A stretch of DNA of 64,000 bases from Streptomyces sp. NBC_01353. GTDB taxonomy: Bacteria; Actinomycetota; Actinomycetes; Streptomycetales; Streptomycetaceae. The stretch covers positions 5,332,001-5,396,000 of the forward strand of contig NZ_CP108352.1 of assembly GCF_036237275.1 (NCBI RefSeq), written 5' to 3'. Each line of letters begins with the position of its first letter. Position 1 is the stretch's first letter. The position numbers were made by a program, and so were the translations under genes. Positions 33,074 through 45,844 of this stretch are shown in pieces. The notes beneath the pieces are model-generated. The model did not search any database and had not been told where the DNA came from. It worked only from the letters and a program-made list of their open reading frames with translations.

Positions 33074-33464
33074 GGGGATGATCGGTTTCGACAGCGGATT
33101 GTCGAAGCAGGGGAAGCGTGTCGAGGAAGCGGCAATGATCTCGTAAACCATATGTCGCAACCAATAATCGCCAACTCCAAGAGCGATAACTCCCGCTTCG
33201 CCCTCGCTGCCTAATTTTAGGTAACGACTAGAAGCCTCTGTGAGGAGCGTCAGCCCGGGGATGGTCCCGACCCGGATCCTGGCGTCATTTAGGGATCTAA
33301 ACCTCTAGCCCCGGTCACGGGGGCCTGAGGGAAATCAAACAGTGACTGAGCCCGTCGGAGACTTGTCCGCGTGATCTCCGGGGCTGAGAAACTCCTAGCG
33401 GACTGCACACGGAGAAGCCCTGATTCTGCACCGTTGGACGCGGGTTCGATTCCCGCCATCTCCA
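33074..33464 (+). ncRNA. ssrA: Transfer-messenger RNA
   Basis: tmRNA rescues stalled ribosomes and tags the unfinished peptide. The tRNA-like ends pair as GGGGATG (33074-33080) with CATCTCC (33457-33463), with discriminator A at 33464. The T arm GCGGGTTCGATTCCCGCC precedes it. The 3' CCA is not encoded (CTC follows). The tag frame runs 33170-33214 and reads ANSKSDNSRFALAA then TAA. The ALAA end is the usual protease signal, while the 14-residue tag is shorter than the S. coelicolor tag as I remember it. The 3' end is estimated from acceptor-stem pairing. Confidence 0.95.
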
Positions 33465-33480
33465 CTCATCCCATGTGGGC

Positions 33481-40689: not shown

Positions 40690-41600
40690 CACCGCCGCAC
40701 GACGCCGCGGGTGCGTACGTACTCGGCATCCTGGACGACGTCGACGCCGCCGCCTTCGAGGCGCACCTGGTGGACTGCGACCTCTGCGCCGCGCACGTGG
40801 AGGAGTTCGCCGGGATGGAGCCGATGCTGGCCATGCTGGCGGACGGCGACACCGCCCCCGCCGCCACGGACCCGTACACCGGCCTGTACGCCGCCCCCGA
40901 CCCGTACACCGGCCCGGTCGGCTCCATGGGGCCGGTGGGTCGCGCCGCCGATCCGTACGCCGACGCGGCCTTCGACGACTTCGCGCCCCGGCCGCCGGCC
41001 CCGCCCGGTCCTCGGCGCATCCCCTCCGCTGCCGTCTCCCTCGACGCCACGCCCGGGCCGCAGCTCCTCGGCCGGCTCATGGACGAGGTGGGCGCCAAGC
41101 GGGCCCGCTCCCGGCGCCGCACCTTCTACCTCGTCGCGGCCGCCGCGATCCTCGTCATCGGCGGCCCCGCCGTCGCCGTGGTCGCCACCTCCGAGGGAGG
41201 CAAGGAGAACCGGGCGATCGAACCCCACCCCACCAGTCCCGCCGAGGACGCCTTCTTCCACCACATGGAGGAGAAGATCCAGGCCACCGACCCGACGACC
41301 AAGATCAGCGCCACCGTCGGCATGGAGAAGAAGGGCTGGGGCACCCACACCGTCCTCGAACTCAAGAACGTCAAGGGCCCGCTCAAGTGCCGGCTCGTCG
41401 CCGTCTCCAAGAGCGGCGAGGAGGAGGTCGTCACTTCCTGGGCCGTGCCGAAATGGGGATACGGCATCCCCGGAGCCACCCAGGAGAGCGCCAAGAACCC
41501 GCTGTACGTGCACGGCGGGGCGGCCATGGACCGCAACGACATCGACCACTTCGAGGTCCGGACCTTCGACGGCGAACGCCTCGTGGAGGTAGAGGCCTGA
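40686..41600 (+). CDS. rsuA: Membrane anti-sigma factor RsuA
   Basis: A 304-residue anti-sigma factor. The N-terminal zf-HC2 domain has FEAHLVDCDLCAAHVEEF (His-x3-Cys-x2-Cys) near residues 25-40. A linker with DPYTG repeats (DPYTGLYAAPDPYTGPV) follows, then a basic KRARSRRR patch and one membrane span (TFYLVAAAAILVIGGPAVAVVAT) near residue 150. The extracytoplasmic part of ~130 residues ends VRTFDGERLVEVEA. It should bind SigU at the membrane and release it on an envelope signal. Translationally coupled to sigU. Confidence 0.88.
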   Translation: MTPPHDAAGAYVLGILDDVDAAAFEAHLVDCDLCAAHVEEFAGMEPMLAMLADGDTAPAATDPYTGLYAAPDPYTGPVGSMGPVGRAADPYADAAFDDFAPRPPAPPGPRRIPSAAVSLDATPGPQLLGRLMDEVGAKRARSRRRTFYLVAAAAILVIGGPAVAVVATSEGGKENRAIEPHPTSPAEDAFFHHMEEKIQATDPTTKISATVGMEKKGWGTHTVLELKNVKGPLKCRLVAVSKSGEEEVVTSWAVPKWGYGIPGATQESAKNPLYVHGGAAMDRNDIDHFEVRTFDGERLVEVEA

Positions 41601-41626
41601 CATTTTGGCCCCCTGTGGCGTACGCT
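41597..41626 (+). promoter_or_regulatory. Promoter of the HelD gene
   Basis: CTGACA (41597-41602) and TACGCT (41621-41626) with an 18-base spacer fit a housekeeping promoter. The -35 overlaps the rsuA stop codon. Transcription would start near 41633. An 8-bp inverted repeat, GGCCCCCT (41607-41614) and AGGGGGCC (41652-41659), spans this promoter and the HelD Shine-Dalgarno. It could form only in transcripts reading through from sigU-rsuA. Confidence 0.55.
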
Positions 41627-41662
41627 CGACGGCTGCCCAGTGCACGTCAGAAGGGGGCCTTA

Positions 41663-44041
41663 GTGGCCGCGCAGGAAGCCGTGGACACCGTGGACACGGT
41701 CCGGGACCGTGAGATCGGTGTCGAGCAAGAACATCTGGATCAGGTCTACCGCCGCCTCGAGGAGAAGATCCGCGAGGCGGAGTTCCTGATGAACGACGCC
41801 GCCAAGCGGGGTCAGGTCGGCACGCCCGGCGCGCTCGCCGAGCGAGACGCCCAGGTGTTCCGGGCCGGTATCCACCTCAACCGGCTCAACAACGAGTTCG
41901 AGGACTTCCTCTTCGGCCGGATCGACCTGCTCTACGGCAAGGACGGCAAGAAGGGCCCCGACGGCGCGTACACCTCCGTCGAGCCCGCCGAGGACGCCGT
42001 ACGCGCCGACAACACGGCCGACATCGGCGAGACCCTCCACATCGGCCGGATCGGCGTCCTCGACTCCGACTACGCGCCGCTCGTCATCGACTGGCGCGCA
42101 CCCGCCGCCGCCCCCTTCTACCGCTCCACCCCGGTCGACCCCGGCCGCGTGGTGCGGCGCCGCGTCATCCGCTCCAAGGGCCGCAAGGTCCTCGGCGTCG
42201 AGGACGACCTGATGCGCCCCGAGCTGACGGCGACCCTGGAGGGGCGCGAGCTGCCGGTGATCGGCGACGGCGCCCTGATGGCCGCGCTCGGCCAGGCCCG
42301 CAGCCACACCATGCGCGACATCGTCTCCTCCATCCAGGCCGAGCAGGACCTGGTCATCCGCGCGCCCGCCGCCTCCGTCACGTACGTCGAGGGCGGCCCG
42401 GGCACCGGGAAGACGGCGGTGGCCCTGCACCGGGCGGCCTATCTGCTGTACCAGGACCGTCGGCGGTACGCGGGCGGCATCCTGATCGTCTCCCCGACCC
42501 CGCTGCTCGTCTCGTACACCGAGGGAGTGCTGCCCTCGCTCGGCGAGGAGGGCCAGGTCGCCATCCGCGCTCTCGGCTCGCTCGTGGACGGCGTGGAGGC
42601 CACCACGTACGACGAGCCGGCCGTGGCCCGGGTCAAGGGCTCCTCCCGGATGCTCGCCGTCCTGCGCAAGGCGGCCCGCGGCGCCCTGGAGACCCCGGCT
42701 CCGAGATCCGCCCCCGGCGACCAGCTCTCCTTCGGAGAGGAGGACGTCGCGCCTGCCCCCGCCGGCACGCCCACGCGCCTGCGGGTCGTCGCCTTCGGCC
42801 GCCGTCTCGAGCTGGAGGCCGACGACCTCCAGCGCATCCGGCACAACGTCCTGGGCGGCTCCGCGCCCGTCAACCTGCTGCGCCCCCGCGCCCGCAGGCT
42901 GCTGCTCGACGCGCTGTACGCCAAGTCCGGCGCCGTCGGCCGGCACAGCGACCCCGAACTCGCCGCCGAGCTGCGCTCCTCCTTCGACGAGGACGTCTCC
43001 ACCGAGGACTCCTTCCTCCACTTCCTCGACGCCTGGTGGCCCGAGCTCACCCCCCGCCAGGTCCTCGACGCGATGGCCGACGAGAGGCGCCTCGGCCGCT
43101 GGGCCCGGCGCATCCTCAACCCGGGCGAGGTCCGCCGCCTCGCCCGCTCCCTGCGCCGTGACGGGCTCTCCGTGCACGACGTGGCACTCCTCGACGAGCT
43201 GAACACCCTCCTCGGCGCCCCGGCCCGGCCCCGCAGGAAGCGGGAGTACGACCCGCTGGACCAGCTGACGGGGCTGGAGGAGCTGATGCCCGTACGGGAG
43301 GAGACGCAGCGGGAGCGGGCCGAACGGCTCGCCGCCGAGCGTGTCGAGTACGCCCACGTCATCGTCGACGAGGCCCAGGACCTCACGCCCATGCAATGGC
43401 GGATGGTCGGGCGGCGCGGCCGGCACGCGACCTGGACCGTCGTCGGCGACCCGGCGCAGTCGTCCTGGTCGACCCCGGACGAGGCCGCCGAGGCCCGCGA
43501 CGAGGCGCTCGGCAGCCGCCCGCGCCGCCGCTTCGAGCTGACCGTGAACTACCGCAACCCCGCCGAGATCGCCGAGCTGGCCGCCAAGGTGCTCGCCCTC
43601 GCCATGCCCGGCAGCACCTCACCGCGCGCGGTGCGCTCCACGGGTGTGGAACCGCGCTTCGTGGCCGTGGGGGAGCCCGCGGCGGGGGAGAAGGCGGGGA
43701 CGGAGCGGTTGGCCGAAATCGTACGGAGCGAGGCGCGCCGTCTCCTGGAGCGGGTGGACGGCACCGTCGGCGTGGTGGTCGCCATGAACCGGCGCGAGCA
43801 GGCCGCGCGCTGGCTGGCCGACCTCGGCGACCGGGTGGTGGCGCTGGGCTCCCTGGAGGCCAAGGGCCTGGAGTACGACGCCACGGTGGTGGTCTCGCCC
43901 GCGGAGATCGCGGACGAGTCCCCGGCCGGTCTGCGGGTGCTGTACGTGGCGCTGACGCGCGCGACGCAGCAGCTCACCGTGGTCTCGGGCGCCCGGGACG
44001 TGCCGGACGCGGAGGGAGTCCCCGACCTGCTCAGGGACTGA
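41663..44041 (+). CDS. HelD/HelR-family RNA polymerase-recycling ATPase
   Basis: A 792-residue UvrD-like motor protein. Proteins of the HelD family bind RNA polymerase and use ATP to clear stalled complexes. HelR members protect against rifamycins. The N-terminal coiled segment (REIGVEQEHLDQVYRRLEEKIREAEFL) corresponds to the arm that enters the secondary channel. VIDWRAPAAAPFYR, Walker A VEGGPGTGKTAVALHRAAYLLY, Walker B VIVDEAQDLTPMQWRMV, GDPAQSSW and LYVALTRATQQL are visible. The GTG at 41663 has AAGGGGG five bases upstream. The gene has its own promoter after rsuA. HelR identity is plausible, but no rifamycin-associated element was seen. Confidence 0.85.
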   Translation: MAAQEAVDTVDTVRDREIGVEQEHLDQVYRRLEEKIREAEFLMNDAAKRGQVGTPGALAERDAQVFRAGIHLNRLNNEFEDFLFGRIDLLYGKDGKKGPDGAYTSVEPAEDAVRADNTADIGETLHIGRIGVLDSDYAPLVIDWRAPAAAPFYRSTPVDPGRVVRRRVIRSKGRKVLGVEDDLMRPELTATLEGRELPVIGDGALMAALGQARSHTMRDIVSSIQAEQDLVIRAPAASVTYVEGGPGTGKTAVALHRAAYLLYQDRRRYAGGILIVSPTPLLVSYTEGVLPSLGEEGQVAIRALGSLVDGVEATTYDEPAVARVKGSSRMLAVLRKAARGALETPAPRSAPGDQLSFGEEDVAPAPAGTPTRLRVVAFGRRLELEADDLQRIRHNVLGGSAPVNLLRPRARRLLLDALYAKSGAVGRHSDPELAAELRSSFDEDVSTEDSFLHFLDAWWPELTPRQVLDAMADERRLGRWARRILNPGEVRRLARSLRRDGLSVHDVALLDELNTLLGAPARPRRKREYDPLDQLTGLEELMPVREETQRERAERLAAERVEYAHVIVDEAQDLTPMQWRMVGRRGRHATWTVVGDPAQSSWSTPDEAAEARDEALGSRPRRRFELTVNYRNPAEIAELAAKVLALAMPGSTSPRAVRSTGVEPRFVAVGEPAAGEKAGTERLAEIVRSEARRLLERVDGTVGVVVAMNRREQAARWLADLGDRVVALGSLEAKGLEYDATVVVSPAEIADESPAGLRVLYVALTRATQQLTVVSGARDVPDAEGVPDLLRD

Positions 44042-44063
44042 TTTCCGGTCAACCTGCGTCGCA

Positions 44064-44089
44064 GGAATCACTTACCAGAGTGGTTTGTT
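44064..44089 (+). promoter_or_regulatory. Sigma-R-type promoter
   Basis: GGAAT (44064-44068), 18 bases, then GTT (44087-44089) is an exact match to the promoter consensus of the thiol-oxidative-stress sigma factor SigR. It lies 22 bases after the HelD stop. Transcription would start within a few bases of 44099, the A of the short leader ORF. Confidence 0.65.
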
Positions 44090-44098
44090 AGCCTGTCT

Positions 44099-44200
44099 AT
44101 GGCACCGGCTCGATCCAAGCCCCCGGGCCCAACCTTCGTCCCTCAGAGGGACCTCTTGCCGCGAGGCGAGCATGGCGGGTCGGTGCCACTTAGTGCATAG
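44099..44200 (+). CDS. Leaderless 33-codon leader peptide
   Basis: ATG at 44099 opens a 33-residue frame ending TAG at 44200. It begins nine bases after the sigma-R -10 GTT, so the message would be leaderless. The peptide starts MAPARSKPPGPTFVPQ and ends GSVPLSA; it is Pro- and Arg-rich, with no membrane span or Cys. Codons 17-19 (AGG GAC CTC) double as the antiterminator strand described in the next entry. A stop 10 bases before the terminator stem is typical of attenuation leader peptides. It could instead be a functional small protein. Confidence 0.5.
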   Translation: MAPARSKPPGPTFVPQRDLLPRGEHGGSVPLSA

Positions 44201-44250
44201 CTACGAAGTTGAGGTCCCTGTCACCCCTGGTGACAGGGACCTCTTCTGTT
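44147..44250 (+). promoter_or_regulatory. Transcription attenuator upstream of malic enzyme
   Basis: A perfect 15-bp stem, 44211-44225 with 44229-44243 (loop CCT), is followed by TTCTGTTT, the best intrinsic terminator tail in the window. The left arm GAGGTCCCT (44211-44219) can also pair with AGGGACCTC at 44147-44155, inside the leader ORF. The two pairings exclude each other. A ribosome on the leader ORF would therefore choose between termination and read-through into the malic-enzyme gene 158 bases further on. Confidence 0.6.
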
Positions 44251-44407
44251 TCCCCAAGGGTTCTCGTATGGTGGAAACTGCTTTCCGAAAACAAAATGAC
44301 CGCATTACCTGCTACCGGCAGGTAGGTGCGACGATCGGAGGGCGCCGCCGGGCAACCAGCCAAGGCGGCGTAGCAACGAAGCTCAGGGAAAGCAGAGGAA
44401 CCCGGCC

Positions 44408-45844
44408 ATGGCAACGGCGCCCAGCGTCTCGTACTCGATGACGGTCAGGCTGGAGGTTCCCGCCAGCGGAACCGCGGTCTCCCAGCTCACCACGGCGGTG
44501 GAGTCCCACGGCGGTTCCGTCACCGGCCTCGACGTGACCGCCTCCGGTCACGAGAAGCTGCGGATCGACGTGACCATCGCGGCCACCTCGACCGCACACG
44601 CCGACGAGATCGTCGAGCAGCTGCGCACCATCGAGGGTGTCGTCCTCGGCAAGGTCTCCGACCGTACGTTCCTGATGCACCTCGGCGGCAAGATCGAGAT
44701 GGCGTCCAAGCACCCCATCCGCAACCGTGACGACCTCTCCATGATCTACACCCCGGGCGTGGCCCGGGTGTGCATGGCGATCGCCGAGAACCCCGAGGAC
44801 GCCCGCCGCCTCACCATCAAGCGCAACACCGTCGCAGTCGTGACGGACGGTTCCGCCGTCCTCGGCCTCGGCAACATCGGCCCGATGGCCGCGATGCCGG
44901 TCATGGAGGGCAAGGCGGCGCTGTTCAAGCGCTTCGCCGACATCGATGCCTGGCCGCTCTGCCTGGACACCCAGGACACCGACGAGATCGTCGCGATCGT
45001 CAAGGCGATCGCCCCCGGCTTCGCGGGCATCAACCTCGAGGACATCTCCGCCCCCCGCTGCTTCGAGATCGAGGCCCGCCTGCGCGAGGCCCTCGACATC
45101 CCCGTCTTCCACGACGACCAGCACGGCACCGCCATCGTCGTCCTCGCCGCCCTCACCAACGCACTGCGCGTGGTGGGCAAGGGAATCGGCGACGTACGGG
45201 TCGTCATGTCCGGCGCGGGCGCGGCCGGTACGGCCATCCTCAAGCTGCTCATCGCGGCGGGCGTCAAGCACGCCGTCGTCGCCGACATCCACGGTGTCGT
45301 GCACGCCGGCCGCGAGGACCTCGTCGAGGCCGAGAAGGACTCGCCGCTGCGCTGGATCGCCGACAACACCAACCCCGAGGGCGTCACCGGCACCCTCAAG
45401 CAGGCCGTCGCCGGCGCGGACGTCTTCATCGGCGTCTCGGCCCCGAACCTGCTCGGCGCGGACGACGTCGCCGCGATGGCGGACGGCGCGATCGTGTTCG
45501 CGCTCGCGAACCCGGACCCCGAGGTCGACCCGGCGATCGCCCGCCAGACCGCGGCCGTTGTGGCCACCGGCCGCTCGGACTTCCCGAACCAGATCAACAA
45601 CGTGCTGGTCTTCCCGGGTGTCTTCCGCGGTCTGCTGGACGCTCAGTCCCGCACGGTCAACACGGAGATGATGCTGGCGGCCGCCTCGGCCCTCGCCGAC
45701 GTCGTCACCGAGGACGAGCTGAACCCGAACTACATCATCCCGTCGGTCTTCAACGACAAGGTCGCCGGCGCCGTCGCGGGCGCCGTCCGCACCGCCGCGA
45801 AGGCGGCGGGCGCGGGTGCCGACAACGGGACGAACGGGCTCTGA
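44408..45844 (+). CDS. NAD(P)-dependent malic enzyme with N-terminal ACT-like domain
   Basis: A 478-residue enzyme that converts malate to pyruvate and CO2 while reducing NAD or NADP. An N-terminal ACT-like regulatory domain (residues ~8-80) precedes the malic core: YTPGVARVCMAIAENP, NTVAVVTDGSAVLGLGNIGP, the catalytic Lys region KAALFKRFADIDAWPLCLD, the metal-site EDISAPRCFEIE, PVFHDDQHGTAIV, and the nucleotide fold GAGAAGTAILKLLIAAG. ATG 44408 has AGAGGA upstream. A GC-rich leader hairpin (GCCGCC with GGCGGC, 44344-44371) lies between the attenuator and the start. A terminator follows the gene. Confidence 0.93.
   Translation: MATAPSVSYSMTVRLEVPASGTAVSQLTTAVESHGGSVTGLDVTASGHEKLRIDVTIAATSTAHADEIVEQLRTIEGVVLGKVSDRTFLMHLGGKIEMASKHPIRNRDDLSMIYTPGVARVCMAIAENPEDARRLTIKRNTVAVVTDGSAVLGLGNIGPMAAMPVMEGKAALFKRFADIDAWPLCLDTQDTDEIVAIVKAIAPGFAGINLEDISAPRCFEIEARLREALDIPVFHDDQHGTAIVVLAALTNALRVVGKGIGDVRVVMSGAGAAGTAILKLLIAAGVKHAVVADIHGVVHAGREDLVEAEKDSPLRWIADNTNPEGVTGTLKQAVAGADVFIGVSAPNLLGADDVAAMADGAIVFALANPDPEVDPAIARQTAAVVATGRSDFPNQINNVLVFPGVFRGLLDAQSRTVNTEMMLAAASALADVVTEDELNPNYIIPSVFNDKVAGAVAGAVRTAAKAAGAGADNGTNGL

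Follow-up and report, generated by a model that had tools for sequence, protein, structure and literature searches.

Stress regulons of many bacteria use a conserved small RNA (sRNA) as a repressive or fine-tuning arm, and we know of no single conserved RNA of the sigma-R/sigma-H response that runs through the class to which Streptomyces belongs. Sigma-R of Streptomyces has the promoter consensus GGAAT-N18-19-GTT (PMC9205884), and sigma-H of Mycobacterium and Corynebacterium has GGAA(T/C) with GTT (PMC10012870). The locus described here shares this consensus, but the excerpts of those accounts treat protein-coding targets, whereas here the product would be an RNA. In Corynebacterium glutamicum, 44 sRNA starts, 33 of which fall in unannotated regions, matched SigH promoters, and 14 transcripts had both SigA and SigH promoters (PMC4046766), so sRNAs of the sigma-R/sigma-H regulon type have already been reported. 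In the excerpts of that paper they are not stated to be one conserved structured family.

Two transcripts described in Streptomyces bear on the locus itself. In S. coelicolor, scr2952 is among the sRNAs with confirmed expression (Vockenhuber et al., cited in PMC8388888), and by its name it adjoins SCO2952, as the element described here adjoins a helicase gene. Since SCO2952 is HelD (PMC8655204) and SCO2951 is malic enzyme (PMC7494193), scr2952 may be this RNA, matched by name and neighbouring gene rather than by coordinates or sequence. It is said to be in Rfam (PMC8388888), yet no Rfam family matches the element, and the excerpts of the literature on scr2952 describe no class-wide family, fold or sigma-R promoter. 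In S. clavuligerus, a premature transcript of CRV15_07890, an NADP-dependent malic enzyme gene, was suggested to reflect a metabolite-responsive riboregulator (PMC8269248). The likeness lies in a short transcript ending before a malic enzyme gene; CRV15_07890 may be this gene or a second malic enzyme, and the excerpts of that paper give no structure or conservation.

Elsewhere in the literature, the main text of a comparative study of Streptomyces sRNAs (PMC3765725) names neither SCO2951 nor 2952. No RNA is named at the locus in excerpts of PMC6344877, PMC9205884, PMC2375139 and PMC10771440 (in the last, the string 2951 belongs to the DOI or number of a reference), and those of PMC13340314 mention small RNA only in the methods. 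Across excerpts of the openly licensed literature, a body that leaves aside the main SigR regulon paper (PMC4546429), nothing names this RNA.

Two broader classes invite comparison. The 6C RNA of actinobacteria (RF01066; PMC8079986) is likewise an actinobacterial sRNA with conserved C-rich stretches (PMC8388888), but it has two stem-loops, each with at least six Cs, and Rfam scans did not report it at the locus. Ribosome-mediated attenuators resemble the locus in the order of short open reading frame (ORF), stem-loop and terminator, and differ in that here the ORF and the antiterminator are not conserved.

Scanned with Rfam 15 at gathering score, the element had no match, either in the window or at the 17 diverse loci (of 82) that were covered, and the reading of the element as a riboswitch or other known RNA was rejected on these scans. 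Three short Rfam scans up to E 5 produced only matches far below gathering scores, which were taken as chance. In the scan of the window element these were sX11, two microRNA families and, at the terminator hairpin, the ClpQY promoter (E 0.028); at locus L161 it was Guanidine-III (E 1). RF02829, tried as a possible scr2952 model, proved to be the Scr4115 family, which has its match at another place in the genome. Within the window, a tmRNA at 33074-33467 was the sole Rfam match to reach gathering score.

Here we describe an 87-nt structured RNA element which, judged by its fold, conservation, promoter association and genomic contexts, is likely to be the core of a stand-alone, stress-inducible and probably trans-acting sRNA family.

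The element and its surroundings in Streptomyces

The window is the whole 64-kb stretch of the Streptomyces sp. NBC_01353 genome that was analysed. In it the element lies between a helicase gene, presumably the orthologue of S. coelicolor SCO2952, and a malic enzyme gene, mae (Table 1). For comparison we assembled a Streptomyces set of 81 loci, comprising the window and the best 80 of 471 malic enzyme relatives (all named Streptomyces), and a further, more diverse set of 81 loci outside it (L109-L190 minus L179), eight of them in the window's family.

Table 1. Features of the helicase-malic enzyme interval, in window coordinates
Feature	Position	Strand	Basis or remarks
HelD/HelR-type superfamily I helicase gene	41480..44041	+	Pfam UvrD-type domains; start uncertain
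Putative sigma-R-type promoter, GGAAT-N18-GTT	44064..44089	+	Sequence, comparison across loci
Overlapping extended -10 TGTTAGCCT (TGnTAnnnT), candidate housekeeping-sigma promoter	44086..44094	+	Shares GTT with the preceding promoter
33-codon ORF of the initial annotation	44099..44200	+	Judged not to be a functional unit
Conserved structured RNA element, 87 nt, proposed sRNA core	44101..44187	+	Alignment A1, covariation, class-wide model matches
Outer helix P1, 5' strand	44101..44112	+	Pairs with 44176-44187; covariation
Outer helix P1, 3' strand	44176..44187	+	Covariation
Inner helix P1b, 5' strand	44115..44119	+	CCA with 44173-44175; G44119 perhaps with C44171
Joining strand with nearly invariant CCCCGG	44120..44134	+	Proposed seed or binding site
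Hairpin P3	44138..44152	+	3' strand is the antiterminator strand supposed initially
Hairpin P4, GNGA tetraloop (GCGA in the window)	44155..44170	+	
Intrinsic terminator, 15-bp stem (44211-44243) followed by TTCTGTTT	44211..44251	+	Proposed sRNA end
Candidate malic enzyme promoter and operator (TATGGT, GGAAA-N4-TTTCC)	44264..44286	+	3' of the terminator; by eye
Malic enzyme gene	44408..45844	+	Pfam PF00390, PF03949

The element was present upstream of malic enzyme at every one of the 81 loci of the Streptomyces set. Its 22-nt core was identical in 80 and carried one mismatch in the remaining locus, and mean column identity reached 96% over the 44 distinct element sequences (alignment A1), all of which kept CCCCCGGGC in the joining strand. 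The outer-helix pair 2-86 was seen as G-C, G-U and A-U, and in hairpin P3 a G-C pair was swapped to C-G in 13 of the 44 distinct sequences. Loci L106-L108, assigned to the same genus by genome search, had a 1-nt deletion within the element.

The terminator was the only terminator-like site in 43500-45000, where 0.5 would be expected. The 15-bp stem and the TTCTGTTT tract reported initially are present, and a hairpin of at least 9 bp followed the RNA within 130 nt in 76 of the 81 Streptomyces loci; the next eight bases held at least four T in 40 of these 76, and 36 were without a T-rich tail. Of the 81 further loci, only 19 had a hairpin of at least 12 bp within the 85 nt that follow the RNA, against 16 of 1471 control windows. 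In Streptomyces, the sRNA would be about 150 nt long; in the window it would run from about 44099-44101 to the terminator near 44251.

The initial annotation had read the same interval differently, as a leaderless leader peptide controlling malic enzyme by ribosome-mediated attenuation in redox or translation stress. All four pieces of that reading (promoter, 33-codon ORF, terminator stem and pairing strand) do exist in the window. A start codon stood at the ORF position in 65 of the 81 Streptomyces loci (61 GTG, 2 ATG and 2 TTG), which speaks somewhat for attenuation, but the nearly invariant RNA keeps the frame open by itself. The start was lost in the other 16 loci and frame length was not conserved: the frame stopped after 15 codons in nine loci, took other lengths of up to 136 codons, and had no stop within the cut in 12. 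With the start kept in 65 of 81, a leaderless ORF may be translated in the Streptomyces set. As a coding unit, we rejected it on the grounds of start loss, length variation and the fact that the variation follows base pairing.

The supposed antiterminator fared similarly. The strand at 44147-44155 can pair with the left arm of the terminator, in a run of 9 bp, but this pairing was not conserved: the run reached at most 6 bp in the other 75 of the 76 hairpin loci, and control segments of the same RNA reached 7-8 bp with the terminator arm. Positions 44147-44152 are the 3' strand of hairpin P3 within the conserved RNA. Checked across Streptomyces, conservation of the two alternative stems was lacking, and the antiterminator was rejected as a pairing confined to the window. 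Considering also that the RNA is inverted relative to mae in other genera (below), we regard attenuation as very improbable.

Fold and distribution across the class

Covariation was assessed in 91 sequences from across the class, namely one copy from each of the 81 diverse loci, the second copy at L132, the window and eight close relatives. The proposed pairs were standard in 97.9% of cells, compared with 84.3% in shuffles; 239 cells were changed on both sides versus 61 in shuffles, and the covariation score was 0.447 versus 0.167, all of these counts leaning towards the model because the alignment was fitted to it. None of 500 shuffles equalled the paired fraction, the double changes or the covariation score, and sliding the partner by one to three columns destroyed the covariation signal. 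RNAalifold, run on a 55-sequence alignment that had itself been fitted to our covariance model of the element, R1, recovered 21 pairs, of which 15 were changed on both sides. Single-sequence folding energy was only moderately better than that of shuffles (z -1.8 to -3.5, five copies).

The helices did not contribute equally. In the outer helix P1, all 12 pairs were changed on both sides and 97.1% of cells were paired. Each of the three P1b pairs was changed on both sides, with 92.2% paired where both letters exist, and these pairs were gapped in 16-17 of 55 sequences. P3 had both-sided changes at two of its five (alignment A4) or six (alignment A3) pairs. P4 gives little covariation evidence of its own because it changes little; CCGNGAGG, which is P4 with its GNGA loop, occurred in 80 of the 81 diverse loci, as did CCCCGG. 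A small hairpin, P2, was poorly supported, with one of its three pairs unpaired in 23 of 55 sequences.

Further pairing emerged from a parse made outside the model, which covered 76 of the 81 diverse copies (47 with four Cs and 29 with five). In all 47 four-C copies, the base before CCCCGG was Watson-Crick complementary to the second base after P4 (29 G-C, 16 A-U and 2 U-A), and nothing of the kind was seen at five neighbouring positions. The 29 five-C copies, the type to which the window belongs, do not form this inner pair in that register; the register given for the window in Table 1, next to P1b, is a presumed one. On the comparative evidence as a whole, the structure of the RNA is maintained by covariation.

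We mapped the distribution of the RNA with R1 and with R2, a model based on 55 diverse copies. By R1 the window's own genome held one copy, and of 296 genomes sampled across the class 146 had a full-length match. R2 found the RNA in 149 of 150 genomes and 16 of 17 genera of the window's family, and in 176 of the 296 class genomes and 63 of 114 genera, with no match in the other 120 class genomes. In a phylum sample of 296 genomes the RNA occurred in 22, all from the window's own class; the other classes of the phylum (about 270 genomes by their handles) gave no match. Stricter filters were applied in these searches, at the cost of some weak matches. Plasmid and phage records held no copy at blastn sensitivity.

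Copy number and form varied in places. Locus L132 carried two tandem copies (1990-2075 and 2172-2257) about 100 nt apart, and genomes G079 and G266 had three copies each. L166, L167 and L175 carried a divergent subtype in which P3 is much longer and the RNA measures 110-112 nt; with R2 it scored only 40-53 bits. Copies from family f19 (L149, L151-L154 and L188) had an apparent extra 5' hairpin, GCGACAGCC..UUCG..GGGCCCUCGC, located by eye between the promoter and the outer helix.

The promoter

As a bare motif, GGAAT-N18-GTT is not rare: 0.35 occurrences are expected in the window and it was present in 28 of 100 shuffles. It is therefore unremarkable there, and its weight must come from comparison. 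The strict motif, GGAAT-N17-20-GTT, was kept in 62 of the 81 Streptomyces loci, and the extended -10 form TGnTAnnnT, which we take to be recognised by HrdB, in 80 of 81.

The motif recurred upstream of the RNA in other families, which bears out the promoter assignment of the initial annotation. It lay within 70 nt upstream of the RNA in 29 of the 81 further loci, compared with 11 of 14431 control windows taken at those loci, or about 470 times the control rate; since many of the loci are related, neither these counts nor those that follow represent independent events. Of the 29 matches, 22 began 32-37 nt before the RNA and seven lay 47-65 nt before it. A looser motif, GGAA(T/C) with GTT, GTA or CTT, occurred in 44 of the 81 loci versus 63 of 14431 controls, and a composite GTTAnnnT in 25 of 81 versus 39 of 34964 control windows. 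The 29 strict matches include L173 and L176, where mae points away from the RNA. The strict motif was missing in 52 of the 81 further loci, and the loose form in 37.

The promoter could instead be the housekeeping extended -10 only, with the GGAAT match incidental. This would fit the better conservation of TGnTAnnnT than of the strict GGAAT motif in the Streptomyces set, and the observation that several further loci without the loose motif, and several families, show the housekeeping-type TAnnnT -10 alone (TAnnnT occurs in 40 of the 81). Such a reading leaves the enrichment of correctly spaced GGAAT and GTT in the further loci as coincidence, and we consider it unlikely.

RsrA-type regulators (TIGR03988, E 1e-5) were present in 288 of the 296 class genomes, the window's own included, 241 of them over the cut-off. 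Being near-universal, RsrA does not discriminate by its co-occurrence with the RNA. From the promoter comparison we strongly infer that many members of the family depend on sigma-R. Transcription would start from a sigma-R/sigma-H-type promoter overlapping a housekeeping-type -10, and because of this overlap we would expect basal synthesis with a rise in thiol or oxidative stress.

Genomic contexts and mode of action

In the Streptomyces set, the RNA was co-directional with mae in 81 of 81 loci, with the hairpin between them in 76. Both facts would suit a role specific to Streptomyces, in which the RNA was recruited as a cis leader, a riboswitch-like aptamer whose ligand or fold gates read-through at the terminator into mae, as would the premature malic enzyme transcript of S. 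clavuligerus if it does not come from a second gene (PMC8269248). Outside the set, however, the arrangement breaks down. L176 and L177 come from two further genera of the window's family; there the RNA is inverted between the same two genes, helD and mae, with mae before it and the helicase gene after it, both on the minus strand. Divergence of mae from the RNA was seen at L171-L174 as well. L178, counted as the window's genus, has the gene order of the window. Where mae points away (L171-L174, L176 and L177), R2 scores were 81-96 bits, about as good as the 88 bits of the window.

The neighbours of the RNA differ between families, altogether so in places. By mechanical gene calls at the 81 further loci, 52 have their next downstream gene on the strand opposite to the RNA and 28 on that of the RNA; at one, no such gene was found. 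The position of the RNA is thus independent of any particular co-directional gene. In addition, mae has a promoter-like site of its own, CTCGTATGGTGGAA, 3' of the terminator: of the 81 loci, 15 were inspected by eye and 12 of these showed it. The alternative pairing proposed for a leader is not conserved. These observations make the cis leader improbable even within Streptomyces, and the class-wide contexts and the inversion at L176 and L177 contradict the coupling to malic enzyme proposed initially. By its contexts, the RNA is most likely not a malic enzyme leader and sits beside mae in Streptomyces by chance.

Two stretches between the terminator and mae were noted on inspection. In the window at 44264-44286, a conserved CTCGTATGGTGGAAA...TTTCCGAAA resembles a mae promoter with an overlapping inverted-repeat operator, and at 44305-44345 a recurring mae leader stretch, GCTACC...GGTAGGTGCGACSATCGG, could by eye form a small hairpin.

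Other neighbours of the RNA were noted elsewhere. A protein family of about 200 aa adjoins it in 24 loci from 11 families; in 22 its gene lies upstream and points the same way as the RNA, and in two it is downstream and convergent (examples are L116, L118, L119, L121, L131, L135, L136, L140, L148 and L152). This protein had no Pfam match (two members scanned), no NCBIfam match (one scanned) and no match in the window's genome. By translated sequence only, a Fur-like regulator gene lies upstream beside the RNA at L162, and a WhiB-like gene beside it at L161, with a homologue at L165. At L138 (2387-2577) and L144 (2204-2394), the Rfam sRNA Ms_IGR-5 lay some 110-260 nt past the RNA, encoded by the opposite strand.

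The contexts of the RNA point to action in trans, and a stand-alone sRNA would be transcribed, presumably induced by stress, and act on targets away from its own locus. The 87-nt core folds into an outer helix enclosing two hairpins and the nearly invariant C-rich joining strand, and in the proposed mechanism this rigid core would present CCCCGG to G-rich targets, for example translation start regions, or to a protein. Under the second option the RNA would work through a protein or a large complex, as do 6S RNA, sponges of the CsrB type and ribosome-bound RNAs, and would not pair with mRNAs. Its most conserved positions are those of a compact fold, a GNGA tetraloop and the nearly invariant joining strand, as protein binding would predict, but one would expect a pairing seed just as much to be a conserved single strand. 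We treat protein binding as possible though somewhat doubtful, and think that pairing with G-rich mRNA sites is somewhat likelier.

Taking the sRNA reading a step further, we tentatively suggest, as a serious possibility that falls short of likely, that this class-wide RNA family, absent from Rfam, serves the sigma-R/sigma-H response to thiol stress as a conserved non-coding arm: one RNA that has taken its stress promoter along through many genomic settings and reprogrammes translation or a core machine via CCCCGG. If so, its reach would compare with that of 6S RNA or of a regulon sRNA of the Fur-RyhB type. Should expression confirm the RNA, it would form a new family for Rfam and would explain transcripts that are otherwise read as leaders of whichever gene follows.
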